A stretch of DNA of 64,000 nucleotides from a virus: the IMG/VR virus record IMGVR_UViG_3300035001_000006, positions 18,194 through 82,193 of that record. One strand, given 5' to 3'. The translations under genes and the position numbers were made by a program. Numbering within the stretch: the first letter of the stretch is position 1; every line of letters starts with the position of its first letter. The notes under the pieces are model-generated. The model searched no databases, was not told where the DNA came from, and saw only the letters and a list, made by a program, of their open reading frames with translations. Positions 15,186-57,195 of the stretch are shown one piece after another.

Positions 15186-15995
15186 TTAATCGACCCACAT
15201 GCCAATGACGGTCCCGAGCACCTTGAACTCCTCGCGGATGGGCTCGTGCTGGGGGTTCAGTGGCATCAGCCACTGCCGTCCGTCCTCGTTTTTGTAGACC
15301 TTGAATGTCACCTCGTCGGTGCCCTCGAGCTTGGCAATGATCCGATCGCCGTTGTCGGGCGCGCGCTTCTCAGGATCGACGTAGATCAGGCTCCCTTCTG
15401 GGTAGCTGCGCTTCGCGCCACTCGGCGCGGTCATGCTGTCACCGCGCACACGAAGGACGTACGAGCTCGCGCTCATCGCTTTCGGGCTGGCGTACCACCC
15501 TTCCGCGTCGCCCGGCTGCAGATAGTCGTTCGCCGCGTCCCACTTGCCCGCACGGATCCACGAAATCAGCGGGAGCATGCGGATTTGGCTCGGGCCCGGA
15601 GAAACGTTCGTACGGGCACCTTCTGCCGCGTCCTGAACTTCGTCATCCGGGGTGTTTCTCTGGCCCTTGTGACCGCTTGGATAGGCCTTCTTCACGTGGT
15701 TCCGAACCGTCCCTTCAGACATCCCGAACGCATTTGCAACGGAGGCGATGTTCTGACCTGCCATCACGGCCTTCACATGGTCCGACTCCCGTAGCTCTTC
15801 CATCGTGTACGTGGGGCGCTGCCTGATCTTCCCCGCGGCCAGAGCCTCCGCATAGGCTGGATCAGCAATGATCAGCCGGCGCAGCTCCGTCGGATCAACT
15901 TTCGCAGCTTTAGCCTGAGAATTTATGGATAGACCGTCACGAATGACAGCTTGGACATAGGGTGAAAGGTCTTTTGCAGTCATGCGCGCCATCAT
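15186..15995 (-). CDS. CI/LexA-type prophage repressor (S24 peptidase)
   Basis: 269 residues from the first ATG; the ATG at 15983 is an alternative. The N-terminal half holds a helix-turn-helix-like region near 20-45 and a clearer one at 78-103 (QNIASVANAFGMSEGTVRNH). The C-terminal S24 domain has the Ala-Gly cleavage site in SWIRAGKW (149-150), catalytic Ser187 in RGDSM and Lys232 in VTFKVY. RecA-stimulated self-cleavage would therefore induce the prophage, as for lambda CI. The gene starts at the edge of the operator region, with hardly any leader, and a TAGAC half-site overlaps its start codon, so it probably controls itself. Confidence 0.93.
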   Translation of the reverse strand: MMARMTAKDLSPYVQAVIRDGLSINSQAKAAKVDPTELRRLIIADPAYAEALAAGKIRQRPTYTMEELRESDHVKAVMAGQNIASVANAFGMSEGTVRNHVKKAYPSGHKGQRNTPDDEVQDAAEGARTNVSPGPSQIRMLPLISWIRAGKWDAANDYLQPGDAEGWYASPKAMSASSYVLRVRGDSMTAPSGAKRSYPEGSLIYVDPEKRAPDNGDRIIAKLEGTDEVTFKVYKNEDGRQWLMPLNPQHEPIREEFKVLGTVIGMWVD

Positions 15996-16175
15996 AGACT
16001 ACTTTTGACAAATATAGACAAAAGTTCAGAAAAATCTTACCCGTTTAGTGGGCACCTGGAGCCCAAGCGATCGCCGTCTAACAGAAAAAAGCCTACCCGT
16101 CAACGCTTTGGACAAAACGCAACGCCATAGACACGGCGCAAAAATACCGTCTAAGTTGTTGTCATGGGTTGTCTA
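15995..16175. promoter_or_regulatory. Repressor operator region with six TAGAC/GTCTA half-sites
   Basis: TAGAC occurs at 15995-15999, 16015-16019 and 16128-16132, and its complement GTCTA at 16076-16080, 16149-16153 and 16171-16175. Two copies lie over the repressor start and its likely -10 (TATATT, minus strand, 16016-16011). Two copies flank and enter the rightward promoter. Spacings of 20-22 nt recur. This is the arrangement expected if one repressor controls both divergent promoters. Confidence 0.65.
16001..16025. promoter_or_regulatory. Inverted repeat operator candidate
   Basis: ACTTTTG (16001-16007) and CAAAAGT (16019-16025) form a perfect 7-bp inverted repeat with an 11-nt AT-rich spacer that includes one TAGAC half-site. 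It lies directly upstream of the repressor gene and over its likely promoter. Confidence 0.6.
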
Positions 16176-16187
16176 ACGTGACATAAT
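16159..16187 (+). promoter_or_regulatory. Rightward early promoter
   Basis: TTGTCA at 16159-16164, a 17-nt spacer and CATAAT at 16182-16187 make a good sigma-70-type promoter reading into the early region, with a start near 16195. GTCTA half-sites at 16149 and 16171 sit beside the -35 and within the spacer, where bound repressor would block polymerase. Confidence 0.75.
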
Positions 16188-16194
16188 CTGTGAA

Positions 16195-16393
16195 TGGGTT
16201 AGGCGATCGTGCCTCCCACGGCCCGCAAGGGTCTTGTTCTTCCCGTGGGCCATGCCGGCAAACCGTCGGCATGCGCTCCACCCTTGCTAAAGCCCTTGTC
16301 GGGGCCTAAGGGCGGAGCTTTGTCCGGAGCGTTTTGCTCAATGACCGACCCCCTACATATCTTCAAGATAAGTAGCAGCAAAGGAAAAAGAGA
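16195..16393 (+). other. Structured 5' leader of the early transcript
   Basis: About 200 nt between the early promoter and the first early gene. It can form several hairpins: CCCACGG / CCGTGGG (loop about 20 nt), ATGCCG / CGGCAT near 16251-16272, and GCCCTT / AAGGGC at 16292-16313 with a 10-nt loop that carries GTCGGGG, part of the dispersed motif. No convincing small gene is seen. It ends with a strong Shine-Dalgarno region (AAAGGAAAAAGAGA). It may hold regulatory or antitermination signals. Confidence 0.5.
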
Positions 16394-17197
16394 ATGTCCA
16401 AAGCCATTATCGCGGCTCCGGCTCAAAAGGCCATCAATGCCACCCGTGCCGATCTCGAAAGCGCAACCCTCTCGACCATCGCAGCCGCCTGCGGCGCCGC
16501 CGGTGCGAACCTCTCGGCCTTGAGCGGCGCCGCAAAGGCGCTGTCGGGCAGCGTGACCAAAGCCGTCCTGCGCGTCATCGCAAAGGAGCGCATCGGCGAC
16601 GTGGTCGGCCCGCTGCGCGAAGCCATCGGCAACGCTGGCAAGGGCGTATCGAACCTCTCGACCATCCGCACGGCCGTGCTGAAGATGCGCGTTGCCTACG
16701 CTGAAGGCAAGGCCGAGGACGGCGCCGGCCCTGCCCTGCCCGTGTGGGAGACCGTCGCCGAAGCGAAGGAATCCGGCGACGCGGCAGTGACAGCGGCCGT
16801 CAGCGCGTGCATTGTCTACGCTGGCAAGACGGATGCAGGCGTGCCCGTCGACCCGCGCGTCGACACTGCGACCCGCGATGCGCTCATGGCCCGCATCAAC
16901 GATGCATGCGCCGAATTCGGGCTTTCCGAAGACAGCGCGGGTAAGGTGCGCGGCGTGTATTTCACGGCGCTGCAAAACATCGTCGCCGATGCCGAGCAAG
17001 CCAGCGAGACGGCCGCCGCTGATGCCGAACAGGCGCAGCAGCAGGCAGAAGATGCCGCCATCGTGGCCGATGCGCATGCGCAATTGCTGGCCGAAGTGGA
17101 GACGCTGCGCCAGATCGCGGCCGAAGCGAAGCGCATTTTCGGCATCGAAACCGAATCCGAATTGCTGGCGGAGATGGCGATCACGGATGCGGCCTGA
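16394..17197 (+). CDS. Alanine-rich early protein of unknown function
   Basis: 267 residues, first gene of the early transcript, with a strong Shine-Dalgarno sequence. The protein is mostly helical and very rich in alanine. The C-terminal third (AEQASETAAADAEQAQQQAED...ETLRQIAAEAKRIFGI) is predicted coiled coil. No known domain is recognised. As the first product after the operator it could be a regulator or a DNA-binding structural protein, but nothing in the sequence decides this. Confidence 0.7.
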   Translation: MSKAIIAAPAQKAINATRADLESATLSTIAAACGAAGANLSALSGAAKALSGSVTKAVLRVIAKERIGDVVGPLREAIGNAGKGVSNLSTIRTAVLKMRVAYAEGKAEDGAGPALPVWETVAEAKESGDAAVTAAVSACIVYAGKTDAGVPVDPRVDTATRDALMARINDACAEFGLSEDSAGKVRGVYFTALQNIVADAEQASETAAADAEQAQQQAEDAAIVADAHAQLLAEVETLRQIAAEAKRIFGIETESELLAEMAITDAA

Positions 17198-17304
17198 ATC
17201 CGCGACGAAACCACCGACCGGGCCGCTGGCCTTGTCGGGGTTGCCGTGTGCGCTCATAGAGCGCAGACGACAGCCTTTCCCTTGGACGCGCATGGAGACC
17301 TGCG

Positions 17305-17847
17305 ATGAAGCAACCCCGCTTATTGACCGCCAACGGCAAAGCCAAAACGGCCAGCCCAAACGGTGGCCCTCGCAGTGGTTTCGAGGTGGTCGACAAACGG
17401 GGCTTTGTGCGCCTTGTTGGCAGCATGGCGACTGCACCTCAGAACGACGCCGGCATCTCGGACATATCTCCGAGATTTGAGGAGCGCGTCGACGGGGTCT
17501 GGCAGTCGGTCTCGTGGACGACGCTGAGCCAGATCCGCCGGCTGAAGACCGAGCGAGACCGCCGCGCCTTCTTCGCTGTGCGTGTGGGCCTGGTGCGTGA
17601 GCTGCCGGGGGACGCGCACGGGATCGTTGACGGGGAGGCATGGTGCTGTCCGCGCGACTACGACCGCGCCCTGGACCGGGACCAGTTCCTGGCCAAGGCG
17701 CTCAAGGTGGGCTTGCTCTCTATTGGCGGGCGCACCTACAGGCTCCGGGAGATCCGGCCCGACACGATTCAGCTGAACCGCGCCGCGGGCAGCGTCAACT
17801 ACACCCGCGAGGCGCTGCTCGAGAGCATCTCGAGCGGCTCAATCTGA
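17305..17847 (+). CDS. Hypothetical early protein
   Basis: 180 residues, plus strand, starting MKQPRLLTANGKAKTASPNG. The first 60 residues look disordered. The rest (WTTLSQIRRLKTERDRRAFFAVRVGLVRELPG...) is a compact basic mixed domain. The family is not recognised. Two near copies of the dispersed motif flank or lie in it (17230-17240 upstream and 17625-17635 inside, both on the minus strand). Confidence 0.6.
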   Translation: MKQPRLLTANGKAKTASPNGGPRSGFEVVDKRGFVRLVGSMATAPQNDAGISDISPRFEERVDGVWQSVSWTTLSQIRRLKTERDRRAFFAVRVGLVRELPGDAHGIVDGEAWCCPRDYDRALDRDQFLAKALKVGLLSIGGRTYRLREIRPDTIQLNRAAGSVNYTREALLESISSGSI

Positions 17848-17862
17848 ACTGAGGAAACCGAC

Positions 17863-18147
17863 ATGGACGAGATCATCGACGCGCGCCCCGTCAACGTCAT
17901 CAGGCTCGAGTTGGCCATTGCCAACGAGCGCCTGGCGATGTTCGGCCACGGTGCCGATGTCGATGGTCGCGACTACTGGCTCGCCAGCAACCGGGTCAAC
18001 TGCCTGACCGATGAGCTGCTCGTTGCCGAGAGCGCTGCGCAGCGCATGGTCGAGGGCGTCGTGGCGAAGTGGATGCATCGCTATGGGCCCCGACAACGTC
18101 AGCGCGAATCGACATTGGTTCAGGACTGGATCGAGGTTCTGGACTGA
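17863..18147 (+). CDS. Hypothetical early protein
   Basis: 94 residues with a GAGGAAACCGAC leader before the ATG. The protein is helical (VIRLELAIANERLAMFGHG...RMVEGVVAKWMHRYG). The gene contains one exact copy of the dispersed motif, read here as P-R-Q-R, and one near copy (17886). No family recognised. Confidence 0.6.
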   Translation: MDEIIDARPVNVIRLELAIANERLAMFGHGADVDGRDYWLASNRVNCLTDELLVAESAAQRMVEGVVAKWMHRYGPRQRQRESTLVQDWIEVLD

Positions 18148-18149
18148 GC

Positions 18150-18256
18150 CGTTGACGGGGATGCTCACCGCGCAGCGGTGAGAGCGGCGCGCAGCGCCGC
18201 GGGCCTTGTCGTTGACTGGGGCGCGGGTGTTGCGGCGGGCGGCGACGTTGACGGGA
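18150..18256 (-). repeat. Cluster of three near copies of the dispersed motif
   Basis: In the 198-nt gap between two small genes, CGTTGACGGGG at 18150-18160, CGTTGACTGGGG at 18210-18221 and CGTTGACGGGA at 18246-18256 lie in the same orientation at intervals of 60 and 36 nt. The regular, non-coding placement resembles a binding-site array. Confidence 0.6.
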
Positions 18257-18345
18257 CCGAGCCCGCGCAGCGGGCGAGGGCCCTGGGCGATGCCCATTCC
18301 AAATCACTTTTGTTAGTGCCCACCAACTGGACGCGGGGAGAAGCC

Positions 18346-18600
18346 TTGCCCACAAAAGCTGACCTGCAGCGCCGGGTGGCCTCGCTCGAGGCCAAGGTGC
18401 GCGCCGACGCGCGGCTCATCGAGTCGCTGCGCAACGAGAACTACGACCTGCGCTGGCAGCTGGGACTGACCGGCGAGCCGCAGGACGACCAGAACAGGCC
18501 ATTCGAGCCCAACGGCTTGATGGGCGTGCCCGGCTACGTGCAGGACCTGCTGGTCCGGCTGCGCGCCGAGCAGAAATCGAAAGGAAGACGCCATGCGTGA
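18346..18600 (+). CDS. Small coiled-coil protein
   Basis: 84 residues if started at TTG 18346, which has GGGGAGAAG just upstream; a start at 18178 would add a GC-driven leader and cover the repeat cluster. LQRRVASLEAKVRADARLIESLRNENYDLRWQLG is a clear coiled coil. Its C-terminus overlaps the next gene by 8 nt. Function unknown. Confidence 0.6.
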   Translation: MPTKADLQRRVASLEAKVRADARLIESLRNENYDLRWQLGLTGEPQDDQNRPFEPNGLMGVPGYVQDLLVRLRAEQKSKGRRHA

Positions 18601-18865
18601 AATGCGAGACCGTGCAGCCATCCTCTACGTGACCGTCGGCCCGTCGCCGCTCGGGATCCCGCTCGACGGCGGCGCACCGAGCTACGTGCCCACCACGCCC
18701 AAGGCGCTGGCCAGTCGGCGGCCGGTCGGCAAGCCGATCCGCCAGATGGCGTCGATCGACCGCTACCGCGAGGCCTTCAAGCCGATTCCCGCCAGACCAG
18801 CCCCGACAACGTCGATGGGCCGGTTCCTGCGCCGGATCGAGGACAGGCTGGCCGCCTGGCTCTGA
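18593..18865 (+). CDS. Hypothetical early protein
   Basis: 90 residues with an overlapping start and an AAAGGAAGACGCC leader. It is basic and proline-rich, with a helical C-terminus (GRFLRRIEDRLAAWL). It contains an exact copy of the dispersed motif at 18801, read as A-P-T-T-S. No family recognised. Confidence 0.55.
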   Translation: MREMRDRAAILYVTVGPSPLGIPLDGGAPSYVPTTPKALASRRPVGKPIRQMASIDRYREAFKPIPARPAPTTSMGRFLRRIEDRLAAWL

Positions 18866-19227
18866 GTTCTACCCGGGTACAAAGCCCCGACAAGGTCGAA
18901 AATCCCGGCTCAAGCGGCACTCCGAACTCTGATTACTTCGGTCTTTTTTGATCCCTGATTCCCTTTGTTATCAACGACTTAAGTACCGAAGAAAGAGTGA
19001 TTCATTGATTTTATAAGTGCCTGCTCCTCGGGGTACTTCACAAGAAAAACTCATCTTCCCTTCACAAGTTGGTCTCGAAATAGGGGGCCCTCGCGAACTC
19101 GAACCGCCACGGGGCCTTCTGGGCTCTTGGGCCCCCACCCTCACTGCACCTAAGTGGCTGCTCCGATTGAAGATTTCCTCTGCGACGCTTCATTTTGTTG
19201 AGTGCCACTTCAAGTGCCAATTCGGAG
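18866..19227. other. Intergenic stretch, AT-richer
   Basis: About 360 nt with no convincing gene. It starts with a CCCCGACAAGG motif copy (18885) 20 nt after a stop codon. A 7-bp inverted repeat, CTTCGGT / ACCGAAG, lies near 18938-18993, inside the lowest-GC part of the early region. It could hold a promoter or replication-related site; no clear -35/-10 pair can be pointed to. Confidence 0.4.
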
Positions 19228-19545
19228 ATGACCTTGGCTTCGTCTGACCGCATGGACTGGATCGCGCTCTACGCTTACCCCGAAAGGCTTGCCAAGCTCC
19301 TGCCTGGCGAATCGGGGGTGTTCATCTGCCCGCCGGCCTGGCGTGGGTCCCTCGGTCGCGTCTGCTCGAAGTGGGTGCGAGAGAACACGAGCTGGTCGGA
19401 GGACTTCCCTGACGGCACGCCGCCGACGTACGTCTTCTGGACCTGTGCCGCTCCGCACGGCCTGCGCGTGAACCGCGGCCACCTGCCCGGCCCGCACCGG
19501 CCGCAGCACGTGCGCTACACGTACCGCCCCCTGCCGCAGGCATAG
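19228..19545 (+). CDS. Hypothetical protein
   Basis: 105 residues from ATG 19228; an alternative ATG lies at 19252 (MDWIALYAYPERLAKLLPGE). The aromatic-rich sequence (CSKWVRENTSWSEDFPDGTPPTYVFWTC) looks like a real compact domain rather than a shadow frame. No family recognised and no strong Shine-Dalgarno sequence, so the start is unsure. Confidence 0.5.
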   Translation: MTLASSDRMDWIALYAYPERLAKLLPGESGVFICPPAWRGSLGRVCSKWVRENTSWSEDFPDGTPPTYVFWTCAAPHGLRVNRGHLPGPHRPQHVRYTYRPLPQA

Positions 19546-19890
19546 GGCGAAACCAAACTGCTGTCACGCAGCGCGCCGGGCGCCCCCGACAACGTCAACC
19601 GAACGGACCTGACCGTGAGCACCGGAACCCACCGGGGCCCGGCCTGTGTCGCTGCGACCGACGTTGTCGGGGATCCCGCCTGGCGCCCCGGCTGCGCTTG
19701 ACCCCGATCACCCCGCCCTTGCTGGCGGCTCGAGCGCTCTGAGCGCCGACGTCGAACCCGGCGCAGAGCGATCTGCACAACAGGAGGAGCCGCCGTGCAC
19801 ACCTTACCGGCATGAAGCGGGCGAGCCGCTACGCCATCCCCTGAGAGCCTTCGCAAAGCGTGAGCGTCGAAGGCTGTTCAGACCCTGCGC
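19546..19890. other. Intergenic stretch with inverted pair of the dispersed motif
   Basis: 345 nt without a convincing gene. CCCCGACAACGTC at 19584-19596 and its exact complement GACGTTGTCGGGG at 19660-19672 form a 13-bp inverted repeat with a 63-nt spacer. The open frames across it have low-complexity Arg/Pro/Ala products typical of GC-rich non-coding DNA. Confidence 0.6.
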
Positions 19891-25907: not shown

Positions 25908-26254
25908 GTGCCCACATCAAGCAGCTTGCCCAGAAGATCCTGAACCTGCAGGCGAAGGAGCATTCGCCGGCGGATGAAGAGCTCTTTCAAACGCTCGTCG
26001 AGCTCGGCGACCAGGCGCAGACCCTCGTGCGTCTGTGCACCCCAACCGAGCCGGGCCCCGACAACGTCGAAGGCAACCTCGCGGTGTTCAGCTACTGGAT
26101 CGCGGCAGACAGCGGCTACACGGCCGAGGCGACCTACGCCGGCATCACTCCCGCGCAGTACACCAACGTGGTCGGCGCGCTGAACGGCAACCTGAAGCTG
26201 GTGACGCCCGAGATCGAGGAACAACTCGCACGGCTTTCCGGGCTGGACAAGTAA
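25904..26254 (+). CDS. Hypothetical protein
   Basis: 116 residues with an AAAGGAACGAG leader; the ATG overlaps the preceding stop. Helical (KQLAQKILNLQAKEHSPADEELFQTLVELGDQA). Carries an exact dispersed motif at 26056, read as G-P-D-N-V. No family recognised. Confidence 0.6.
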   Translation: MSAHIKQLAQKILNLQAKEHSPADEELFQTLVELGDQAQTLVRLCTPTEPGPDNVEGNLAVFSYWIAADSGYTAEATYAGITPAQYTNVVGALNGNLKLVTPEIEEQLARLSGLDK

Positions 26255-27957: not shown

Positions 27958-28217
27958 AGCGCAGTGATGCCCTGCCCTATGTCGGCTACTGCGTCGACGA
28001 CTCGCTCAACTCCTTCGAGGGTACCGAGGCAACGATCCCCGACAACGCCAGGCTCGTGGGCTGGCAGTGCGGCTTCGAACCCATGTTCGTCGCCGTCTGG
28101 TCGTACCTCGGCAGCCGGCTCGACGACGACGACGCGATCGACATCGCAACGGACCTGCTCGACGAAATGGGCTGGTTCGGCGACGAGATGCCGCGCGAAC
28201 CCGACTACGTGATCTGA
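27954..28217 (+). CDS. Hypothetical protein
   Basis: 87 residues starting at GTG 27954, which overlaps the preceding stop (GTGA). Acidic; ends in DDDDAIDIATDLLDEMGWFGDEMPREPDYVI. Contains an exact dispersed motif at 28037, read I-P-D-N-A. Function unknown. Confidence 0.6.
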   Translation: MKRSDALPYVGYCVDDSLNSFEGTEATIPDNARLVGWQCGFEPMFVAVWSYLGSRLDDDDAIDIATDLLDEMGWFGDEMPREPDYVI

Positions 28218-43415: not shown

Positions 43416-43983
43416 CTATCCCGCATTCGTCCGCAAGCTGTTCAACCGCAGCGGCGACCCCTCCAAAGACTTCGCCCACGCCGTGCTCGGCATCGCGACG
43501 GAGAACCACGAGCTTCTCAGCGCAACCGATCGCGTGAACGCGATCGAAGAAATCGGCGACGCCGAGTTCTACGCAGTGGCTCTTCAGCAGGTCATCGAGG
43601 ACCGCTGGCAGCATCCGCTGGAGATGGCCGCGCTGGAGGACACCATCCAAGAGGACGTCGACCTGATCCTCTCGTCGACAGAGCCGTACGCACTGCTCCA
43701 GGACACCACGAACGAGCTTCTCGACCACGCGAAGCGCTGGGTCGGCTACGGGCGCGCACCCGAGCGGCTCGAGGCCTCCTACACGCTGGCGATAGTCGCG
43801 CAGCGTGTGGCCCGCGAACTCAGCCTCGTGAAGCATGCCGACGCCACCCAGGCGCACATCCGATCCGTGAACATGGCCAAGCTGCTCAAGCGCTACCCCG
43901 GTGGCGACTTCGATCAGTTCCGAGCCTTGCAACGCGACCTGGGTGCCGAGCGTGCGACTCTGGAATCTGCCGTCCTGGGTTGA
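43384..43983 (+). CDS. MazG-like nucleotide pyrophosphohydrolase
   Basis: 199 residues; start lies inside the end of the exonuclease gene. The helical core FAHAVLGIATENHELLSATDR followed by AIEEIGDAEFYAVAL shows the E-x2-E (Glu40, Glu43) and E-x2-D (Glu56, Asp59) metal-binding pairs of the all-alpha NTP pyrophosphatases. Phage MazG proteins hydrolyse noncanonical nucleoside triphosphates or lower alarmone or nucleotide levels. It fits the nucleotide metabolism genes around it. Confidence 0.82.
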   Translation: MSNLLQAQEPSYPAFVRKLFNRSGDPSKDFAHAVLGIATENHELLSATDRVNAIEEIGDAEFYAVALQQVIEDRWQHPLEMAALEDTIQEDVDLILSSTEPYALLQDTTNELLDHAKRWVGYGRAPERLEASYTLAIVAQRVARELSLVKHADATQAHIRSVNMAKLLKRYPGGDFDQFRALQRDLGAERATLESAVLG

Positions 43984-44935
43984 CCCGAAGAAGGCCCTCC
44001 AGACGCTGAACCGCGCTGCCGTTGACGGCGGCGTCGCTTTAGCGGTGAAGGAGCGCGCGCGGGAGCTTGGCCGCAAGCCACTCTCTAGCGTGCTACTGCC
44101 CGGCTTCCACCTCTTCGAGGGCCCCTGCCCCGTCGCCCCCTACAGCTGGCTGCTGCCGAAGCCCAAGGGCGACGTGCAGGATCTGCTCGGCCTATGGGAG
44201 GCGTATGTGGATCAGGACCTCGGCGCGCGCTATAGCCGGCGGTCACCGCTCGAGGCGATCCAGCGCGACCGCTTCGTCTTGGGGTCGGCAGCCTTCAAGC
44301 GCGTCTTCGGCGGACCACGGCACCCCCGCGATTGGGCGCAGCCGGCGGCAATGATCATCGCCCTCGCGCAACACCTGGAAGGCCAGGAGAACCTGCAGTT
44401 CACCCTCTCGAACGCAGCGTTGATGCACGAGCGCACGCTGCAGCTGCGAATGCACCTGTCCGGCTACATGCTCGAGGTGAGCCACCGAGGCATCTTCTCG
44501 AACATGCACCGAAAGGTGGTCTCTCCGCGCTACCAGGCCTCCGACGCCAAGCTGGAAGGTCTGTGCATCCGTCCGCTGCGATCGGCGCACCCGCTTGCCG
44601 TTGCGTTGATGGAGAACGAGGACACCCCGCACGCTTGCCTGCAGGCCGCCAACGTGGTGCTTCGGGCCGTCCGGCAGGGTCTGCTCGATGAGCAAGACGT
44701 GAGGCTCTCAGCTGGCGCAGCGCCGCGCGCTGCGAGAGAAGAGGCGGTCGTGGCAGCGCTGCAGCTGCTGGACCGCGAAAAGAACCTGCGCCTGGTGTAC
44801 GACAAGGTCGTGCCCCGCGTGGTTTCTGCAGCGGAGTTCCGAAATCTCTTCGGGAACCCATTCAGAGGTGTCTCAGCGCCGCGGGCCGACACGGTCGACA
44901 AGTGGCGGGCTCACCTCTACTCGCTCGTTCCATAA
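43943..44935 (+). CDS. Hypothetical protein
   Basis: 330 residues from GTG 43943 (MPSVRLWNLPSWVDPKKALQ); an ATG at 43901 is possible too. The gene overlaps the MazG gene by 41 nt. Mixed composition with no membrane helix; has GGPRHPRDWAQPAAMIIALAQHLEGQENLQF and a helical C-terminal half. No catalytic motif is apparent. It lies among DNA and nucleotide genes, so a role there is possible but unsupported. Confidence 0.55.
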   Translation: MPSVRLWNLPSWVDPKKALQTLNRAAVDGGVALAVKERARELGRKPLSSVLLPGFHLFEGPCPVAPYSWLLPKPKGDVQDLLGLWEAYVDQDLGARYSRRSPLEAIQRDRFVLGSAAFKRVFGGPRHPRDWAQPAAMIIALAQHLEGQENLQFTLSNAALMHERTLQLRMHLSGYMLEVSHRGIFSNMHRKVVSPRYQASDAKLEGLCIRPLRSAHPLAVALMENEDTPHACLQAANVVLRAVRQGLLDEQDVRLSAGAAPRAAREEAVVAALQLLDREKNLRLVYDKVVPRVVSAAEFRNLFGNPFRGVSAPRADTVDKWRAHLYSLVP

Positions 44936-46035: not shown

Positions 46036-46280
46036 TGGCCGCCGAAGCCGACAACCTTGACAGGGCTGCGGACCTCACCCGCGCGCGGACGGACACGCAG
46101 ATCGCCGCGGTGCGGAGCTTGGCCGCTCCCGAGCAGATCCAGAACTCCGACGGCACCTGGCCCGAGACCGAGTGCGTCGTGTGCGGCGTCGACCTCGGGA
46201 AGCGGGCGGAGCTCGGGAAGATCCGCTGCGTTCACTGCCAGGGCCAGATCGAAGCCAGGGGCGCGCGATGGCCAAGGTGA
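46035..46280 (+). CDS. DksA/TraR-type zinc finger protein
   Basis: 81 residues starting on the last base of the preceding stop codon. The C-terminal ETECVVCGVDLGKRAELGKIRCVHCQ is a DksA/TraR C4 zinc finger. The short N-terminal helix (NLDRAADLTRARTDTQIAAV) matches TraR, which enters the RNA polymerase secondary channel without needing ppGpp. It may redirect host transcription during phage growth. Confidence 0.85.
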   Translation: MAAEADNLDRAADLTRARTDTQIAAVRSLAAPEQIQNSDGTWPETECVVCGVDLGKRAELGKIRCVHCQGQIEARGARWPR

Positions 46281-46648
46281 ACCCCAACTCCAAGGCATCC
46301 AAGTTGCGGCGCGCCAAGGCCCTGCTAGAGGCCCTGCTGCGCGCCCCGAAGACCCAGGCTGGCCTGATCGCCGCCGCGCGGACCAAGGGCGTCACCCGCA
46401 ACTTCGTCTATGGCTGGCTGACGAACGCGGTTCAGACCGCTGTGGTCGTGAAGCACAAGAGCACCGACCCACCGACTTTCCAGCTCGCCGCTACCGCGGC
46501 GACCGAACAACCCTCCGCCGGCGACTACCCCCCATGGCTTGAGCCGCGGGGCCTGCCGGCTTTCACCGGCCGCACCGCCTTCATCGGCGGAGCGCGCCGA
46601 ACGCGAACCGCAAAGGAGACCACATGCGCTTCAACATCGACCATCTGA
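46268..46648 (+). CDS. Hypothetical basic protein, helix-turn-helix-like
   Basis: 126 residues from ATG 46268. The basic N-terminus (KVNPNSKASKLRRAKALLEALL) and KTQAGLIAAARTKGVTRNFVYGWL suggest a winged-helix or HTH protein. The C-terminal part is low-complexity and overlaps the polymerase start by 25 nt, so its end is certain only if the overlap is real. Possible regulator of the polymerase gene. Confidence 0.5.
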   Translation: MAKVNPNSKASKLRRAKALLEALLRAPKTQAGLIAAARTKGVTRNFVYGWLTNAVQTAVVVKHKSTDPPTFQLAATAATEQPSAGDYPPWLEPRGLPAFTGRTAFIGGARRTRTAKETTCASTSTI

Positions 46649-49600
46649 TCATCGACGGCAACAGCTACCTGAACTCCGCCCTGCTGAAGGGCACCGACCA
46701 CGACGCCGGCTACAAGGTCAAGACCGAAGACGGCAAGGAGGTGCAGGTCAACGGCGCCGAATACGGCGTCGAGAACTTCTTCGACAAGGTCACCGCGGAC
46801 ATCGAGCACTTCGGCGTTCCCCCGCGCAAGATCATCCTCGTGTGGGACGGCAAGAACGCGAAGATGCGCCGGCGCGCCGTGCTGGCTCGCTACAAGGAGG
46901 GCCGCGACAAGATCGAGGAGGTCAACATCGAGCTGAACAAGGCTCGCGAAATCTGCACCCAGATGATGCTCGACCTGGGCGCCACCGTGATGCAGCAGAA
47001 GGGGATGGAGGCCGACGACGTCATCGGCTACCTCACCAAGACCCTCCCGGGTTGCAAGGTCGTCGCCACCAACGACGGCGACCTGAGCGTGCTGGTGGAC
47101 GAAGTGACCGACACTCACGTCTGGCGCCTCGGCGAGCTAGACAAGCAGCCCTACGGCCCCTTTCCGCACCGCTACATCACGCTGTACAAGGCGTTGGTCG
47201 GCGATTCGGGCGACAAGATTCCCGGCGCGGCCGGGTTCGGTGATGCGAAGTTCGTCGACCTGGTGCGGATCTTCGGCATGGACGGCCTCGAGCTCATGCA
47301 GGACTTGATCCTGACCGGCAAGCTGGCGCGCCTGCGCGAGGACGTGGCCGACTTCCCTGCCCTGCAGAAGATCATCGACGGCGCCGACCAGGTCGCGATC
47401 TCGTGGCGCTGCGCGGAGCTGCACGTCGAGGACGTGAACACGCTCCACAGCCCCCTGGAGATCCAGGCCGGCATGGTGAAGACTTGGGCGTCGCTGCCCG
47501 ACGAACGCCGAGCCACCAGCCTGCGCCGCTTCTACGGCACCAACACGCTGATGCACGCCGCGAACTACGACGAGGTGAAGGCCAAGCTGGCCGCGCGCCT
47601 CGCCGAGTCGCCGTTCGTCGCGCTCGACATCGAGACCTCGTCGACCGAAGAGTCCGACGAGTGGGTGGCGGCAGTGGCCGACGCAATGGACAAAGACGAG
47701 AAGCTGGACGCGCTCGGCCACGAGCTCACCGGCGGATCGCTGACCTTCGGCGACAACACTCAGCACACCATCTACATGACGGTGGACCACCTGGAGACGC
47801 CTGACCACAAGAATCTCACCAAGGACCAGTTCCGCGAGGTGGTCGAGCTGATCCCGTCGGACAAGATGCACACGGTCATCCACAACCGTGCGTTCGAGTT
47901 CAACGTCCTGTACCGAACTTTCGGCGAGGCCTGGAAGGACAACGGCTGGGGCGGCTTTGTGCCAAACGCGATCGACACCCAACTCGGCAGCTCCTACGTC
48001 AACGAGAACCTGCCGCTGGGCCTGAAGGATCGCAGCGCGACCCACCTGGGCTACAAGCAGACCACGTACGAGGAAGTGACCACGATGCGCGGCAAGGTGG
48101 GCTCCCTTTTGGGTGGCGTTGTGAAGTCCATCTATCCGGTCGAGCTTGTGCCCGCCGTCATGGCCCCGAACCCGAAGTCGACCGAGAAGAAGCCGCTGAA
48201 GGACATCGTCATCACGCCGGCGGTGACTGAGGACTGGGAGCTGCGCGAGTACAAGATGAACCAGCTGACCGCCCAGCACGTGCTGAGCTACGGCTGCGAC
48301 GACACGATGTGCACGGCCGCGCTGCACACCTACTACCGGCTCGTGATGGACATCGAGGGAACCTGGGACGTGTACCTCGAGGTCGAGCAGCGCCCGCAGT
48401 ACCTGACCAGCCTTGCCAACCTGCAGGGCGTCAAGATCTCGATGTCCAAGCTCAAGGAGATGGAGCGGAAAGACGACCAGCGCTACGCCGAAGGCTGGGA
48501 CACGCTCCGCGCGTTTCTGCTTGACCATGGTTGGGAGGGCACGGTGTGCCCCGAGTTCGAGGGCAGCCTGGAGCCGTCCGACGTCAAGCTGGCCGCCGGC
48601 ATCATCCTGCCGGACGGCGAGTTCACGACGAAGAAGCGCAAGCACAACGCGATGGCGTTTGACCTGCGCGAGCAGTTCCCCGACAGCGACGTGGCAAGCG
48701 TGCTGGCCAACTTCGTCGAAGCGGACGATGTGGAGGGAGTGAACAAGCTGGTCCGCCGGCACTTCACCGGCGAGCCTCAGATCAAGTTCAACTCGGCCAA
48801 GCAGATGCAGAACCTGTTCTACAACGTGCTGGGCATGACGCCGCGGAAGTTCAACGCGCTGACCGAAAAGCAGCGCGAGATCCCCGAGATGGCCTCCGCG
48901 TTCAAGAAGCTGCGCTCGATCAAGGACGGCAAGATGACGATGGCCGACCTCACGAAGGAGGAGCGCGACATCCTGATCTCGAAGGCATCGACGGACGACG
49001 ACCTGGTCGAGTTCTCGCTGGCGCGCGACACTCTGACGGACGAGAACCGGAAGGCTCTGAAGGCCTACCAATCCGTGCGCTCGGTGATGACTCGCCGAAG
49101 CCTGTTCTACAAGACCTACAAGGCGCTCCCGCACTGGCGCACCGGCCGCATTCACAGCGCCATGAACCAGTGCCAGGCGGTGACGCGACGCTACTCGAGC
49201 AGCGGGCCCAACCTGCAGCAGCTGCCCAAGCTGGATGAGGGCTCGGAGTTCCGAGGCATCATCCAACCGCACAAGCCGACGGCCGTGATCGTATCGTGCG
49301 ACTTCTCCGGTCAGGAGCTGCGTTTGATGGCGCACTTGTCGGAAGACGAGAACCTGACGTCCTGCTACGTTGGCGACAACCTGAAGGACGTGCACAGCCT
49401 GACGGCAGCCGCCGTGTCGGAGTACCTCTGGGACCGACGCCTGGCGTACGAGGAGTTCGTGGCGCGCCGCGAGGGAGAGGAGAAGACTGTCTCCGACAAG
49501 GCGGAGAAGCTGCGCAAGGACTCGAAGATCGTGAACTTCGGCACCAACTACGACATGCAGGCGGAAGCGCTTGCCATGAAGCTGAAGGTCGAAGCGGAGA

Positions 49601-50136
49601 TCGCGCAGCAGTTCATCGACGCGAAGGACGCCGCGATGCCTGGAATCGGCGTCTGGAAGGACGATGTGCGCCAAAAGGTAGAGGAGACTGGATTCGCATC
49701 CACCCTGCTCGGCGCGCGCCGCCACCTCCAGGAGGTCCTTCGCAGCGACAACCACTGGGACCGCGCGAAGGCTGGTCGCCAGGGCCCGAACTTCGAGATC
49801 CAGGGCTCCGGCGCCGAGCAGTCGAAGCTCTCCATGGGCTCTATGTGGGACCAGGGCCTGTTCACGGGCAGGTACGACGCACAGTTCATCGCGCCGATCC
49901 ACGACGAGTGCGTGGCCAGCGTCGATGCGGCTGACCCGGACCACGCAGTTGAGTTCATCCGCGAGTTCCATGCCTGCATGGCGCAGCCCTACGGCGGCAT
50001 GACCATCCCGGTCGTCTCGTCGATCTCGATCGGGCCGGACTTCAAGCACCAGATCGAGTGTGGCGACTACTTCGACGAGGCCGCGATCCGCGCAGCCTTG
50101 GCGAAGATCTTCAGCAAAGAGGAGGTGGCCGCTTGA
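46624..50136 (+). CDS. DNA polymerase, family A, with 5' nuclease and 3'-5' exonuclease domains
   Basis: 1170 residues, longer than E. coli Pol I. Residues 1-230 form a FEN-type 5' nuclease (IIDGNSYLNSALL, VVATNDGDLSVLV, GDSGDKIPG). The 3'-5' exonuclease begins with FVALDIETSS near 335. Polymerase motif A is SCDFSGQELRLMAHL near 890, motif B KLRKDSKIVNFGTNYDMQ near 962, motif C IHDECVAS near 1093. The fused 5' nuclease is unusual for a phage enzyme, where it is mostly separate. It would replicate phage DNA with the primase-helicase and remove RNA primers itself. Confidence 0.94.
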   Translation: MRFNIDHLIIDGNSYLNSALLKGTDHDAGYKVKTEDGKEVQVNGAEYGVENFFDKVTADIEHFGVPPRKIILVWDGKNAKMRRRAVLARYKEGRDKIEEVNIELNKAREICTQMMLDLGATVMQQKGMEADDVIGYLTKTLPGCKVVATNDGDLSVLVDEVTDTHVWRLGELDKQPYGPFPHRYITLYKALVGDSGDKIPGAAGFGDAKFVDLVRIFGMDGLELMQDLILTGKLARLREDVADFPALQKIIDGADQVAISWRCAELHVEDVNTLHSPLEIQAGMVKTWASLPDERRATSLRRFYGTNTLMHAANYDEVKAKLAARLAESPFVALDIETSSTEESDEWVAAVADAMDKDEKLDALGHELTGGSLTFGDNTQHTIYMTVDHLETPDHKNLTKDQFREVVELIPSDKMHTVIHNRAFEFNVLYRTFGEAWKDNGWGGFVPNAIDTQLGSSYVNENLPLGLKDRSATHLGYKQTTYEEVTTMRGKVGSLLGGVVKSIYPVELVPAVMAPNPKSTEKKPLKDIVITPAVTEDWELREYKMNQLTAQHVLSYGCDDTMCTAALHTYYRLVMDIEGTWDVYLEVEQRPQYLTSLANLQGVKISMSKLKEMERKDDQRYAEGWDTLRAFLLDHGWEGTVCPEFEGSLEPSDVKLAAGIILPDGEFTTKKRKHNAMAFDLREQFPDSDVASVLANFVEADDVEGVNKLVRRHFTGEPQIKFNSAKQMQNLFYNVLGMTPRKFNALTEKQREIPEMASAFKKLRSIKDGKMTMADLTKEERDILISKASTDDDLVEFSLARDTLTDENRKALKAYQSVRSVMTRRSLFYKTYKALPHWRTGRIHSAMNQCQAVTRRYSSSGPNLQQLPKLDEGSEFRGIIQPHKPTAVIVSCDFSGQELRLMAHLSEDENLTSCYVGDNLKDVHSLTAAAVSEYLWDRRLAYEEFVARREGEEKTVSDKAEKLRKDSKIVNFGTNYDMQAEALAMKLKVEAEIAQQFIDAKDAAMPGIGVWKDDVRQKVEETGFASTLLGARRHLQEVLRSDNHWDRAKAGRQGPNFEIQGSGAEQSKLSMGSMWDQGLFTGRYDAQFIAPIHDECVASVDAADPDHAVEFIREFHACMAQPYGGMTIPVVSSISIGPDFKHQIECGDYFDEAAIRAALAKIFSKEEVAA

Positions 50137-51255: not shown

Positions 51256-52339
51256 CCTGCACCTGGGCGTGAACCGCTCGGGCGGCACCACCCTCGCCTC
51301 TCTCACTTCGCTCCGCGAGTATGGGCACACGAAGCACCGGGAGCTCCTCGACCTGGCCAAGGACGGTGACACCGTCGTCGTCAACGGGGACCTCTCGGAC
51401 GTCTACGACATCCCGCTCGGCCAGGCGATCGAGATCTACGCCGTTGTCGGGGAGTTCCTGCGCGCGCAGAAGAGCTCGCGTGTTGTCTGGGCCGTGGGCA
51501 ACCACGACTTGAGCAAGGACTCGAGCAAGCTGGGTACGGTGGCCTTCCTGGGCGCCCTGCTCGAGGCCCAGTTCCCCGGGCGCTTCCAGCTCCTGGACAA
51601 GCCCGGCCTGCTGGGCAGCGACACCTACATCATCCCGCACGTGGCGAACCAGGAGATGTTCGACATGGAGCTGACGCGCATCCCGACGGGCGTCACCTTC
51701 GTGCTGCTCCACTGCAACTACGACAACGAGTTCGCCGGCGCGATGGACCACTCGCTGAATCTGTCGCGCAAGCAGGCGAAGGCGCTCAAGGACCGCGGCA
51801 TCACCATGGTGTTCGGTCACGAGCACCAGCAGCGCGACCTCATCGGCGGGGCCGTGGCCATCGTTGGCAACCAGTTCCCGAGCTCGGTGAGCGACTGCCT
51901 GAACAACGAAACGAAGCGCTGCGCAGTGATCGAGGACGGCCGGCTCTCGTTCATCCAGACCTGGTCGCGCGACGACAAGGTCGGCTACTTCAAGGAGGTC
52001 GACTGGCGCGACGTCGCCAGCTTCATCCACGAGCCGAGCGGCTTCATTCGCGTGGTCGGCAACGCCAAGGGCGAAGAGGCAGCCGAGATGATCAAGGCGA
52101 TCTCGACGCTGCGCTCCAAGAGCGAGGCTTTCGTCATCACCAACGCGGTGCAGGTCGAGCAGGCAGAGGGCCTGGGCGAGATCGCCGCCAGTGTCGAGGA
52201 CGTGCGCAGCGTGAACGTGATCGACCTGCTGCTCGAGCTGGTCACGCCCGAGCAGGCGCGCGTCATCAAGCAGCTCACCGGCCGCGAGGTCGAGCTCGAG
52301 ATCGCCCAAGAAGAAGAACACGAGGAAGCAACCGCATGA
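51233..52339 (+). CDS. SbcD/Mre11-like nuclease
   Basis: 368 residues from ATG 51233 with AAAGGAATTCCA upstream. Metallophosphoesterase motifs in order: NDLHLG (8-12), NGDLSD, GNHD, HCNYDNE, and GHEHQ. It should form a complex with the SbcC-like ATPase encoded two genes downstream, as Mre11-Rad50 or T4 gp47-gp46 do, for recombination and end processing. A reverse copy of the dispersed motif lies at 51442. Confidence 0.9.
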   Translation: MRTLIINDLHLGVNRSGGTTLASLTSLREYGHTKHRELLDLAKDGDTVVVNGDLSDVYDIPLGQAIEIYAVVGEFLRAQKSSRVVWAVGNHDLSKDSSKLGTVAFLGALLEAQFPGRFQLLDKPGLLGSDTYIIPHVANQEMFDMELTRIPTGVTFVLLHCNYDNEFAGAMDHSLNLSRKQAKALKDRGITMVFGHEHQQRDLIGGAVAIVGNQFPSSVSDCLNNETKRCAVIEDGRLSFIQTWSRDDKVGYFKEVDWRDVASFIHEPSGFIRVVGNAKGEEAAEMIKAISTLRSKSEAFVITNAVQVEQAEGLGEIAASVEDVRSVNVIDLLLELVTPEQARVIKQLTGREVELEIAQEEEHEEATA

Positions 52340-53184: not shown

Positions 53185-55306
53185 CAAGATCATCCTGACC
53201 AACTTCCAGCGCCACCGCCACCTCGAGGTGGTGTTCAACGCGGGCATCAGCGCCCTGCGCGGCTCGAACGAGGCCGGCAAGTCGACTCTGATCCGCGCGA
53301 TCTGCTACGCGCTTTTCGGCGCGAAAGCGCTCCCGATGTCGCTTTCCGAAGCCGTGACCTGGGGCGAGCCCGAGGCGTCGCTGAAGGTCCTGCTCGAGTT
53401 CGTCGTCGACTCGGTCGTCTACACGATCAAGCGCGGCAAGTCCGGCGCCGAGATCACCTACGACGGCGGCATCGTCACCGGCCAAAACGAGTGCACGGCC
53501 TTCGTGGCCAAGCTGCTGAAGGCGGACGCCGTCAGCGCCTCGCGCCTGATGCTGGCCAACCAGAACGAGATCCGAGGTGCGCTCGAGAAGGGTGCGGCCG
53601 AGACCACCAAGCTGATCGAGCAGCTCGCCGAGTTCGACCAGATCGACAACCTGATCGAGACGATGGAAGGCACGCTCACCCTGGGCAGCCCGAAGGTGGC
53701 GGAAGCCGCCATCGCCAACGCCGAGATCCAGCTCGACCAGGCGCGCGCCGAGGCCACCCCCGTCGACGTCGAGGCCTACGGCCGGGAGATCGCCGCCCGG
53801 CAGGCTGAGCTTGCCGCGGCCGAGGACGCCCTTGCGCAGCTTGACGCGCAGATCGCCGAGCTGCACACCGAAGCGAACAAGCTCACCGACCAGGCCAAGG
53901 AGCGCGCAGCTGCTGACGGCGCCGTCGGGACGGCCGCCGCGCGCCTTCAGCGCGCACGGCTGAAGCTCGAGGAAGCCCGCGGCGTCGCCGAACCGGCCGC
54001 CGTAGACCTAGCCGCACTGCGCGCCCGGGTGCTCCAGCTGAGCCAGCTCGAGGTCGTGCGCGGTGCGCGCGCGGCCGCCGAGCCGTTCCTGGGTGAACCA
54101 CAGCTCGCGAAGGACGACCGCTACGAGGGCGTCTACGAGGCATTGGTGGCTGACATCACCGCAACCCGCAGGGACGTGCAGGCCAAGTCCTCCACGATTT
54201 CCGGCCTGGAGCGAACCGCAGCCCTTGCTGAGTCGAAGATCTCCACCGGAAGCTGCGCGACTTGCGGCCAGGACATCAGCCACCTGCCCGAGGTGGCAGC
54301 GCGCAACGCCGAGCTGAAGGCGGAAGCAGATGCCGCCCGCCTCAAGCTCGAGACTGCCACGAAAGAGCACACCGAACTGCTCGAGTACCTGCGTGCGCTC
54401 GAGGCGGTCCAGAAGGAGTCGGCCCCGCGTCTGCAAGCGGTCGACCGTCTGGGCAAGTATCTGAAGGTGTCGGACGCACTCCTCCCCCCGACGCTCGAGT
54501 GGATCGGTGGCGAGATCCCCGACAACGCCGCGGCCGAGATCGCAACCATCGAGCAGCAGATCGTCGCGCACGAGAAGGCCGTGCGGGCGTTCGACATCGC
54601 TTCTGGCCAGGCCGATGCAGCCGCCAAGGAGTTCGACGCCTACCAGGCCGAGCTCGAAGCCGCCAAGGCTAAGTGCTCGGCGCTGCCGATCGTCGATCCG
54701 GAGCCGGCGCAGAAGGCCTGCGTGGCCGCCCAGGCGCGCCGCGCAGAGGTCAATGGCGAGGTTCGCGCGTGCCAGCGCAACCTCGACAACGAGGTGCGTG
54801 GCAAGCAGGCAGCGCTCGAGGCCTACCAGCGCGCCGTGAACGCCGCGGACATGGCCGAGCGCACGCTGTCTGCCCGCCGCAAGGAGCTGACCGAGCTGGC
54901 CTTCAACAACGGCCTGCTGAAGGCGGTGCGCGCGGCGCGCCCGGTCATTGCCGACAAGCTGTGGAACCTGGTGCTGGCGGCGGTCGGCAAGTACTTCTCG
55001 GAAATGCGCGGTGTGAAGTCGCGCGTCACCAAGGACTCGGACGGCTTCAAGGTGGATGGACACACGGCTACGACGTTGTCGGGGTCGACGCTGGACATCC
55101 TGGGCCTGGCCATCCGGGTGGCGCTGACCCGCACCTTCCTGCCCACGGCGCCGTTCCTCGTTCTTGACGAGCCGGCGGCGGCCATGGACGGCGAACGCAC
55201 CGAGCTGATGCTCGGCTTCCTGGTGACCTGCGGCTTTCCGCAGACCCTGCTGGTGACCCACGAGGACATCAGCGAGTCGGTCGCCGACAACGTGATCACG
55301 ATCTGA
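53177..55306 (+). CDS. SbcC/Rad50-like ATPase
   Basis: 709 residues, overlapping ThyX by 8 nt. Walker A GSNEAGKST at 29-37. Long coiled coils around a CATCGQD zinc hook near residue 361 separate the halves. A C-terminal Walker B FLVLDEPAAAMDG is at about 661. It is shorter than host SbcC but close to phage T4 gp46 type. With the SbcD-like protein it would process double-strand ends and drive recombination-dependent replication. Motif copies at 54517 (I-P-D-N-A) and antisense at 55074. Confidence 0.9.
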   Translation: MLNKIILTNFQRHRHLEVVFNAGISALRGSNEAGKSTLIRAICYALFGAKALPMSLSEAVTWGEPEASLKVLLEFVVDSVVYTIKRGKSGAEITYDGGIVTGQNECTAFVAKLLKADAVSASRLMLANQNEIRGALEKGAAETTKLIEQLAEFDQIDNLIETMEGTLTLGSPKVAEAAIANAEIQLDQARAEATPVDVEAYGREIAARQAELAAAEDALAQLDAQIAELHTEANKLTDQAKERAAADGAVGTAAARLQRARLKLEEARGVAEPAAVDLAALRARVLQLSQLEVVRGARAAAEPFLGEPQLAKDDRYEGVYEALVADITATRRDVQAKSSTISGLERTAALAESKISTGSCATCGQDISHLPEVAARNAELKAEADAARLKLETATKEHTELLEYLRALEAVQKESAPRLQAVDRLGKYLKVSDALLPPTLEWIGGEIPDNAAAEIATIEQQIVAHEKAVRAFDIASGQADAAAKEFDAYQAELEAAKAKCSALPIVDPEPAQKACVAAQARRAEVNGEVRACQRNLDNEVRGKQAALEAYQRAVNAADMAERTLSARRKELTELAFNNGLLKAVRAARPVIADKLWNLVLAAVGKYFSEMRGVKSRVTKDSDGFKVDGHTATTLSGSTLDILGLAIRVALTRTFLPTAPFLVLDEPAAAMDGERTELMLGFLVTCGFPQTLLVTHEDISESVADNVITI

Positions 55307-55450
55307 ATCGAAAGTGCCGCCAATTGACTTAGCGGCGTCGTTGCTGGGCGAGATTGAGTTTCTTGCCCAATCCAGCAATAGCGATGCGAATGTCGAAAAC
55401 GAAAGGATTCGAACTAGCGCGCTTTTATGCAATGTACCATTTTGGACTAC

Positions 55451-55464
55451 TTCACGCGCGTGAA
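55451..55464. repeat. 14-bp perfect palindrome TTCACGCGCGTGAA
   Basis: Lies in the 248-nt gap between the SbcC gene and the tailspike gene, about 90 nt before the tailspike ribosome site. A perfect palindrome of this length in an intergenic region is a likely dimeric-protein site. No clear promoter can be assigned next to it. Confidence 0.6.
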
Positions 55465-55554
55465 ACAACTTGATGCAGAACGTGAAAGGAAGCAACATTG
55501 CTGCGGCGGCCGCTGTCTAGGTCAAGCCATCCCTTCACCTCAAAGGAACTTCAC

Positions 55555-57195
55555 ATGAGCTTCGAAAAAAATGAGCAATTGTCTTCAGTCCCGATGGTAG
55601 ACGACGATGCGGCCGTCCTCGCGATCTTAGCTGCGCCTGACGGCGATTCAAAAATCGGAGTGGTACAACCAGAGACTGGCGCGACCGTGCAAACCCAGCG
55701 TGAGTTTAATAGGCGTACATTAAACGTGATGGACTATATTGACAGAACGATGTGGTCCGCTATTGAGTCGGGAAACTTATCCGGTCAAAACGCCACACTC
55801 ATTACAAGTGGAATCACGAACGCAATTAACGCAGCGATCGCTCGTCGAAAGCGTTTAAAATTTAACGGAGGATCGTATTTGCACAATTCGTTGAGCATAA
55901 ACGGCCCTTTAGAGGTGGACGGCGAAGGGCGGATTGCCACGAGGCTGCATATCAATTCAGCCAACACAAATAGCATAGTCATTAACAGCTCTAGTCCTTG
56001 CGCAATCCGCTCAATGACTATCAATGGCCAGAACACATCCACAACCGGGGACATAATTCAGGTAAACGGCAGCATACCGACTGAATACAATAGCTATTCG
56101 GAATTTGCGAACCTGACGCTCGCTGAAGGCTGGAATGGATTCCACGGGCGCAGCGCCGGTGGATTTATTCTACGAGACAGTTATCTGGTGAACTGCAAGG
56201 GAACGCTTGTCATCGTCGAAAACCAGGCAACCCCCGACAACGGAGATAGCACCATCACGGGGTGCATCCTGGCAAACGCTAACGGCGTAGGCAAAATCAT
56301 TGTACAACTCGGCAGCGGGGGACTCCGAATAGTTAACAACAAGGGTCTCGGTGGCACGCATTTCTATCAATTAAACGCTGGCAGCGGAGTCGCCACATCG
56401 ATCCTTGTCGCAACTGGAAACTCTCTTGAAGGATTTACACAAGCAGGGTTTAGCATCGGATCGAGTGGAGGCACGCTTGGAAATATTTCTCTTGCCTCAA
56501 ACGAAATCACCGTAATCGGTGCGAACTGCCGAGGAATCGAACTAAATAGCCAACAGAACATTAACGTCAGTTCGAACGTTTTTAGGCTCGGCGGCGGTAG
56601 CGAACGCGGTGTTGTAGTGACCGCCGCCTCCGAGTGGCTGATCGGCGGCAACTCGTTTCAAGCCAATGATGGGAATAGCGGCCCCGCGATCCAAGTAGCA
56701 GCAACTTCCGGCAGCGGGCTCATTTTGCAGCAGAAGTTCGCAGGCTTTGCGACCAATGTCCAAAGCGCCGCACCAAGCTCCGTTGTCCGAAATTACTCCA
56801 CAACGGGCTCTCTGGCGTCGCAGGATGCCAACAACGTCGCTATCACTGGTGGTGCGGCAAGCCTCAACAACCTAAAAGTTATTTCTGCCGTTGCAAAGAC
56901 TGGCACCGATGCGGGAGCCCTGACCGTTAGTTCTTCTGACACGAGCAATCCGATCCAACTGCTAATGGGCTTTGGTCCGGGTAAAAACTACATCACAAGT
57001 ATCGAGCAAGGAGTAGCTTTCCGTCCGCTAGTGCTAAATGAGGGCGGTGGATCGATTCAACTTGGCATGGGTAATTGGCAGAATCCAGTTTACCTAGGCA
57101 CGAGAGCCCTCTGGTTCACTTCGTCCGGCCAGATGCGATCGAAAACGGGCGCACCCACCAGCGAAACGGATGGTGTGGGGTATGTAACTTCGTAA
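55555..57195 (+). CDS. Tailspike / beta-helix receptor-binding protein
   Basis: 546 residues from ATG 55555 with AAAGGAAC upstream. AT-richer than its neighbours. After a head-binding-like N-terminal part (residues 1-95), the rest has the Asn-, Gly-, Ser- and Val-rich repeats of a right-handed parallel beta-helix (for example NSIVINSSSPCAIRSMTING, GNISLASNEITVIGANCRG). The C-terminus (GVGYVTS) may form a trimer tip. Such proteins bind and often cut surface polysaccharide. It stands far from the other tail genes, beside O-antigen modification genes, as in P22 and Sf6. Confidence 0.78.
   Translation: MSFEKNEQLSSVPMVDDDAAVLAILAAPDGDSKIGVVQPETGATVQTQREFNRRTLNVMDYIDRTMWSAIESGNLSGQNATLITSGITNAINAAIARRKRLKFNGGSYLHNSLSINGPLEVDGEGRIATRLHINSANTNSIVINSSSPCAIRSMTINGQNTSTTGDIIQVNGSIPTEYNSYSEFANLTLAEGWNGFHGRSAGGFILRDSYLVNCKGTLVIVENQATPDNGDSTITGCILANANGVGKIIVQLGSGGLRIVNNKGLGGTHFYQLNAGSGVATSILVATGNSLEGFTQAGFSIGSSGGTLGNISLASNEITVIGANCRGIELNSQQNINVSSNVFRLGGGSERGVVVTAASEWLIGGNSFQANDGNSGPAIQVAATSGSGLILQQKFAGFATNVQSAAPSSVVRNYSTTGSLASQDANNVAITGGAASLNNLKVISAVAKTGTDAGALTVSSSDTSNPIQLLMGFGPGKNYITSIEQGVAFRPLVLNEGGGSIQLGMGNWQNPVYLGTRALWFTSSGQMRSKTGAPTSETDGVGYVTS

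Follow-up and report, generated by a model that had tools for sequence, protein, structure and literature searches.

The window, by which we mean the whole 64-kb stretch of DNA analyzed here, forms the right-hand part of an 82-kb virus record and contains the full replication module of a phage, which encodes a ligase, a helicase, a primase-like protein, an exonuclease, polA, SbcD/SbcC-like proteins and ThyX. Since an integrase gene (59460-60680) overlaps the end of a tRNA-Val gene and a gene for an S24-type repressor is also present, the phage is temperate. Dispersed through its early region are copies of an 11-mer, CCCCGACAACG, which are listed with the associated genes in Table 1.

Table 1. 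Core sites and associated features along the window
Feature	Position	Strand	Remarks
S24-type repressor gene	15186..15995	-	Long ORF; start by our own caller, 15776
Hub: exact and near copies clustered in both orientations	16294..19672		Next to the repressor gene and to the strand switch between late and early genes (about 15.8 kb)
Exact core CCCCGACAACGTC, P-R-Q-R	18088..18100	+	Aligned copy exact in G2
Variant CCCCGTCAACGGC	18148..18160	-	Inside a conserved, hairpin-rich non-coding stretch (18148-18340)
Exact core, P-T-T	18801..18813	+	Conserved in G3
Variant CCCCGACAAGGTC	18885..18897	+	84 bp (14 x 6) past the 18801 copy
Exact core, intergenic, left half of inverted pair	19584..19596	+	Conserved in G2 and G3
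Exact core, right half of inverted pair	19660..19672 (11-mer at 19662)	-	Offset 78 bp (13 x 6)
Exact core, P-D-N	26056..26068	+	
Exact core, P-D-N	28037..28049	+	Conserved in G3
Exact core, intergenic, directly past a stop codon	29262..29274	+	
Exact core, P-D-N frame of an uncalled ORF	30679..30691	+	
Exact core, P-T-T	31111..31123	+	
Exact core, primase-like gene	39437..39449	+	Found in 3/3 close phages
Exact core, start of exonuclease gene	42680..42692	+	Found in 3/3 close phages
330-aa fast-evolving "slot" protein, candidate reader 2 or partner	43943..44935	+	No family or fold match
126-aa winged-helix protein, candidate reader 1	46268..46648	+	Directly 5' of polA
polA of the replication operon	46624..50136	+	Query for relatives
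Exact core, antisense in SbcD-like gene	51440..51452 (11-mer at 51442)	-	Conserved in G3
Exact core, P-D-N, SbcC-like gene	54517..54529	+	
Exact core, antisense in SbcC-like gene	55072..55084 (11-mer at 55074)	-	
Exact core, P-D-N frame of ORF 55498-57195	56232..56244	+	Position 13 is not C, unlike in the other 14 exact copies

All 15 exact copies reported by the initial annotation, 12 on the plus strand and 3 on the minus strand, are present where it had placed them. Base composition predicts about 0.1 exact copy in the window, in agreement with its estimate of well under one per 64 kb. The near copies that it described also exist, in larger number than the ten or so it had counted: 19 further sites differ from CCCCGACAACG by one mismatch, giving 34 sites in total, whereas 100 dinucleotide-preserving shuffles of the window gave 2.29 sites on average and at most 7. 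No exact copy occurs in the late module or the host flank, as had been claimed, or in the 18.2 kb of the record to the left of the window. With our own reading frames we obtained the same partition of the exact copies, which are read as P-D-N (6), P-T-T (3) or P-R-Q-R (1), lie antisense to genes (2) or are intergenic (3).

The conserved word is wider than the 11-mer first noted and consists of an almost invariant 13-base core, CCCCGACAACGNC. Within the core, changes are tolerated best at positions 6 (A to T), 9 and 10 and are very rare at positions 4, 5 and 7. Of the 45 copies in the three closest phages, 44 have C at position 13, irrespective of the reading frame and also between genes. Synonymous-codon shuffling within genes, a control that the initial annotation had suggested, failed to reproduce the counts, yielding 0.94, 0.95 and 2.0 copies of CCCCGACAACGNC in three phages in which 8, 7 and 10 are observed. 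The data support a constraint on the word family that is not at the protein level.

Searches with polA identified two close relatives, G2 (from IMG/VR) and G3 (a Variovorax paradoxus prophage on two contigs), which are colinear with the phage of the window and whose aligned DNA is mostly 65-88% identical to it. G2 and G3 carry 14 and 16 exact copies, respectively, and CCCCGACAACG is the top-ranked 11-mer by count in all three phages. Many copies have no aligned counterpart or lie in unaligned DNA, and since few positions (39437 and 42680) are common to all three, the family is maintained while single sites turn over. The 6.6-Mb Variovorax genome contains 27 copies, 16 in the prophage and 11 elsewhere. 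As the latter number is close to the composition estimate of about 9.5, the density on the host chromosome, which the initial annotation had proposed to check, is near chance outside the prophage, supporting a family that is phage-specific.

The word is also retained at greater distances. G404 (polA 56% identical) has 18 copies, and the G058 prophage, whose primase is 43% and 38% identical over two pieces, has about 14; another 8 lie elsewhere in that 3.3-Mb genome. A search of viral contigs with the winged-helix protein of Table 1 as sole query returned eight new records, five of which have 10-30 exact copies, and the reversed word used as control is absent from all eight. A second search added G805, with 11 copies, and the fragments G803, G804 and G806, with 1-4. 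The identical 11-mer is thus kept among phages whose proteins are only about 40-50% identical. The exact word is absent from G001, G405, G796 and G797, and we found no substitute dispersed motif when we looked for one in the last three. Words enriched in G001 proved to be a local tandem repeat and ribosome-binding sites rather than a dispersed family, and those enriched in G796 an alanine-rich coding repeat. Gene boundaries in the relatives are those of our own simple gene caller.

Pooling nine phages gave 153 copies, of which 67 are in the P-D-N frame, 17 in other sense frames, 19 antisense and 50 intergenic. In these copies a 6-bp register is directly visible, as G-N-C recurs at +4, +10, +16, +22, +28 and +34. 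When counted in six mutually diverged phages at the four places from +16 to +34, G-N-C is found in phase in 56/132 cases for intergenic copies and 30/68 for antisense copies, versus 6/132 and 4/68 after a shift of 3 bp; downstream of intergenic copies, the pattern has faded by about +64. The phage of the window itself shows the pattern weakly (13/60 versus 3/60). Decoy words, such as GACAACG without CCC, have little G-N-C pattern, and these and the out-of-phase controls rule out a general coding periodicity. Neighboring sites within 130 bp are spaced by a multiple of 6 bp in 22 of 47 co-oriented pairs and 9 of 22 opposed pairs, some of which come from one array, such that not all are independent. 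Since a G-N-C triplet also reads as G-N-C on the opposite strand, opposed sites separated by multiples of 6 share one grid. Covariation of the free bases in inverted pairs, judged by eye, was inconsistent.

A hub of clustered sites is directly observed in most genomes. In most phages, the densest 2 kb holds 5-11 sites in mixed orientation, is 32-69% non-coding and is found no more than about 5 kb from the strand switch between late and early genes; in the phage of the window it begins at 17886 and is 47% non-coding. By this measure G2 is an exception, with three co-oriented sites located elsewhere, and G799 may be circularly permuted. Outside the clusters the sites follow an orientation rule: all 15 intergenic copies point in the same direction as the nearest gene, and genic copies are sense in 70 cases and antisense in 10. 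The ten single antisense copies are nonetheless well above the reversed-word control. Since antisense copies are both enriched and accompanied by the 6-bp grid, the constraint is on DNA rather than RNA, which upholds the first half of the earlier proposal of a constraint "on DNA or RNA" and argues against the second.

Which protein might read the word? One candidate is the 126-aa protein, for which AlphaFold predicts three helices and a wing (mean pLDDT 70). The best PDB matches to this model found with Foldseek, all weak, are winged-helix regulators including AspA; a Pfam Fur domain and a PDB sequence relative were not found, and tblastn of 50,697 phage records gave zero matches. The gene is present in all motif-bearing phages that cover the region and missing from G001 and G405. 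It also occurs in motif-free G796 and G797, which weakens the case for this protein as sole reader. The second candidate, the 330-aa protein, is encoded in a slot flanked on one side by a MazG-like gene and on the other by a gene for DUF7220 or a kinase. Every motif-bearing phage that covers the slot has a gene there, and the slot is vacant in G796 and G797. The slot protein is highly divergent (about 26%) even though the word does not change: it is diverged in G058 and hardly recognizable in G805, with homology that is weak or undetectable in these two phages, and G405, which lacks the winged-helix gene, encodes a weakly similar one. The AlphaFold model of the 330-aa protein (mean pLDDT 74) gave no credible fold match. 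The motif is seen only where the winged-helix and slot genes co-occur, although this association is based on few independent events, about two. An S24 repressor was not detectable in G404, G795, G798, G799 or G805, all of which bear the motif, and we rejected it as the reader on this phyletic ground; judging from gene content, the motif in these relatives does not require one.

Dispersed operator families are known from other phages, such as the P1 C1 operators, which are asymmetric, and the phiC31 repressor sites; both are bound by repressors and lie mostly at promoters, and we know of no 6-bp extension at either. It could be that a lysogenic repressor bound to polar sites forms road-blocks that halt early transcription, much as in the stoperators of mycobacteriophages to which the initial annotation had compared the word. 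Cluster A stoperators are asymmetric 13-bp sites in tens of copies, mainly in short intergenic spaces and with an orientation tied to transcription, at which the immunity repressor binds and blocks elongation (PMC9283540, PMC6550527). The sites described here share the asymmetric 13-bp consensus in tens of copies and, as orientation matters likewise for stoperators (PMC9283540), the alignment with transcription (15/15 single intergenic copies; mixed in the hub); their number of 10-30 and their confinement to the early region would also suit road-blocks. However, the stoperator consensus diverges with the repressor of the phage (PMC6550527), whereas this word is constant among diverged phages, and most of its copies (103/153) overlap genes. 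The 6-bp extension, the different host group, the position of the candidate readers in a lytic operon and the persistence of the motif in five relatives without a detectable S24-type repressor also set the family apart from mycobacteriophage-type stoperators, and we regard road-blocks as unlikely.

Chi and KOPS are short polar words of skewed orientation that are enriched across host chromosomes. A polar signal of similar logic, acting in replication, recombination or packaging and read by phage machinery such as the SbcCD-like nuclease or the helicase, would fit the skewed orientation of the word, the tendency of sites to be directed away from the hub and the presence of replication and SbcC/SbcD-like genes in the phage itself. 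However, motif-free phages possess these enzymes too, sites in this record are confined to the early region, the 13-bp core with its 6-bp extension is long for such a signal, and the word is at chance level in the Variovorax chromosome, such that we give this explanation a lower standing than road-blocks. Lower again we place a signal in early transcripts, such as a target of antisense or small RNA, a site for an RNA-binding ring protein or an antitermination signal. Although the sense bias of genic copies (84 to 19) and the conserved hub hairpins that bear the complementary word would fit such a signal, codon use by itself favors sense reading, orientation in the hub is mixed, and antisense copies exceed their control and carry the 6-bp pattern. 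In addition, an Rfam search of the window returned one tRNA only, folding near sites resembles the control, and an upstream hairpin was rejected as a general feature of the sites, since folding energies are similar to those of control intergenic DNA. We found no support for antitermination, nor for the boundary of module exchange that had also been suggested. RNA-guided recognition by a Cas7-like complex would also produce a 6-nt periodicity, and the free or tolerant positions are indeed the 6th, 12th, 18th, 24th and 30th. Such recognition is very improbable, as only the G and C flanking the free base, not the whole 5-nt segment, are kept from the second unit on, and PADLOC matched none of the nine early proteins tested. 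The explanation to which we give the least credence is that the word is a by-product of coding, with P-D-N as a favored peptide written in codons that end in C, or of the common descent of small paralogous genes. Although 67/153 pooled copies are read as P-D-N and several fall in small early proteins, with comparable distances to the stop codon, copies also occur between genes, antisense and in other frames, the C beyond the free base is near-invariant, synonymous shuffles do not give the counts, and close relatives mostly differ in positions. The word family is too regular and too widely conserved for chance or protein coding.

An asymmetric protein-binding site, one of the possibilities raised by the initial annotation, is the kind of explanation that the data support best, and the dispersed word looks like the landing site of a phage DNA-coating protein. 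We tentatively favor the possibility that CCCCGACAACGNC is a nucleation site for an oligomerizing phage DNA-binding protein, with the winged-helix and slot proteins as its readers and a role at the hub and along the early region in lytic growth. Here, the core would be a polar recognition site in double-stranded DNA at which a phage-encoded oligomer nucleates and from which it extends in 6-bp steps, reading one G-N-C per step. The reader would most likely be the winged-helix protein encoded before polA together with the fast-evolving slot protein, whose gene lies a few genes further upstream. Acting during lytic growth, these proteins may build a nucleoprotein structure at the non-coding hub, which lies by the late/early divide and is probably an origin or a control region, and smaller structures along the early region. 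We infer the protein oligomer as the source of the register, as well as the identity of the reader and the role in replication or in the early region. A role in replication or recombination is somewhat favored by the non-coding hub and by the fact that the replication operon contains the candidate genes.

Precedents exist for the parts of such a system. Fur/PerR proteins, which are of winged-helix type, have been modeled to polymerize as hexamer arrays with a 6-bp step (PMC3293774), and the DNA described here shows a 6-bp repeat register, although its sequence differs, the candidate has no Pfam Fur match and the sites belong to a phage rather than to the host. AspA of plasmid pNOB8 is a winged-helix protein that nucleates at one site, spreads and has a partner (PMC5120986), resembling the nucleation, spreading and partner protein proposed here. 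However, its centromere is a 23-bp palindrome at one locus, with partition genes (ParB/ParA partners) (PMC5120986), whereas the phage sites are dispersed. A literature search on the word itself returned unrelated papers only; since the searched literature does not discuss the word and the winged-helix candidate had no tblastn match in the phage records, the system seems to be undescribed.

Dispersed families of binding sites with a strict register are rare. That phages with about 40-50% protein identity keep the word letter for letter while its positions shift points to an important DNA-organizing step. It is conceivable, though we hold this fuller version with less confidence than nucleation as such, that this step is carried out by a new two-protein phage system, made up of the winged-helix protein and its fast-evolving partner. 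The two would form a nucleoprotein filament in register with the sequence, starting from the invariant polar 13-mer and advancing by 6 bp per step, and would organize the early half of the genome and the origin region during lytic growth.

Two parts of the hub, the mixed-orientation cluster of motif copies near the repressor gene, are shared among the three close phages (the window phage, its IMG/VR relative G2 and the Variovorax paradoxus prophage G3). One of its GCGCAGCG-core hairpins, GAGCCCGCGCAGCGGGCGAGGGCC, is almost identical in all three and adjoins reverse-orientation motif copies. All three have also kept a TGCTGTCACGCA block with two motif copies after it, arranged as an inverted pair; in G2 and G3 these lie at matching places. 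The hub also includes a non-coding AT-rich stretch (63% AT, in a genome of 64% GC), which is possibly an unwinding element.

To the right of the repressor, repeated GTCTAA-type words accompany a good match to a sigma-70-like promoter with an extended -10 (TTGTCA-17-CATAAT); these are probably the early promoter and repressor operators.

Other features stand out in relatives. Long conserved ribosome-binding words (GGAGTTTCACATG, TTTGGAGTCCA, AAGGAGAACTGA) precede start codons in the G058 prophage, G799, G796 and G001, and resemble start-associated sequences. The SNF2-type helicase of G797, a relative without the exact word, has 810 aa versus 470–543 aa in relatives, and has an insertion, beginning CVDSDTEYLSPTGWIKI, that looks like an intein. 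G799 (IMGVR_UViG_3300037420_001796), which bears the motif, has a second dispersed motif, a palindrome centred on GTTACCGGTAACG (~10 copies), which may be an operator.

Coordinates of the features discussed
Feature	Genome	Position
Promoter and GTCTAA-type words	window	16073-16187
Hub hairpins	window	18160-18300
AT-rich stretch	window	18916-19020
TGCTGTCACGCA block and inverted pair	window	19570-19672
SNF2-type helicase gene	G797 (L055)	3809-6241
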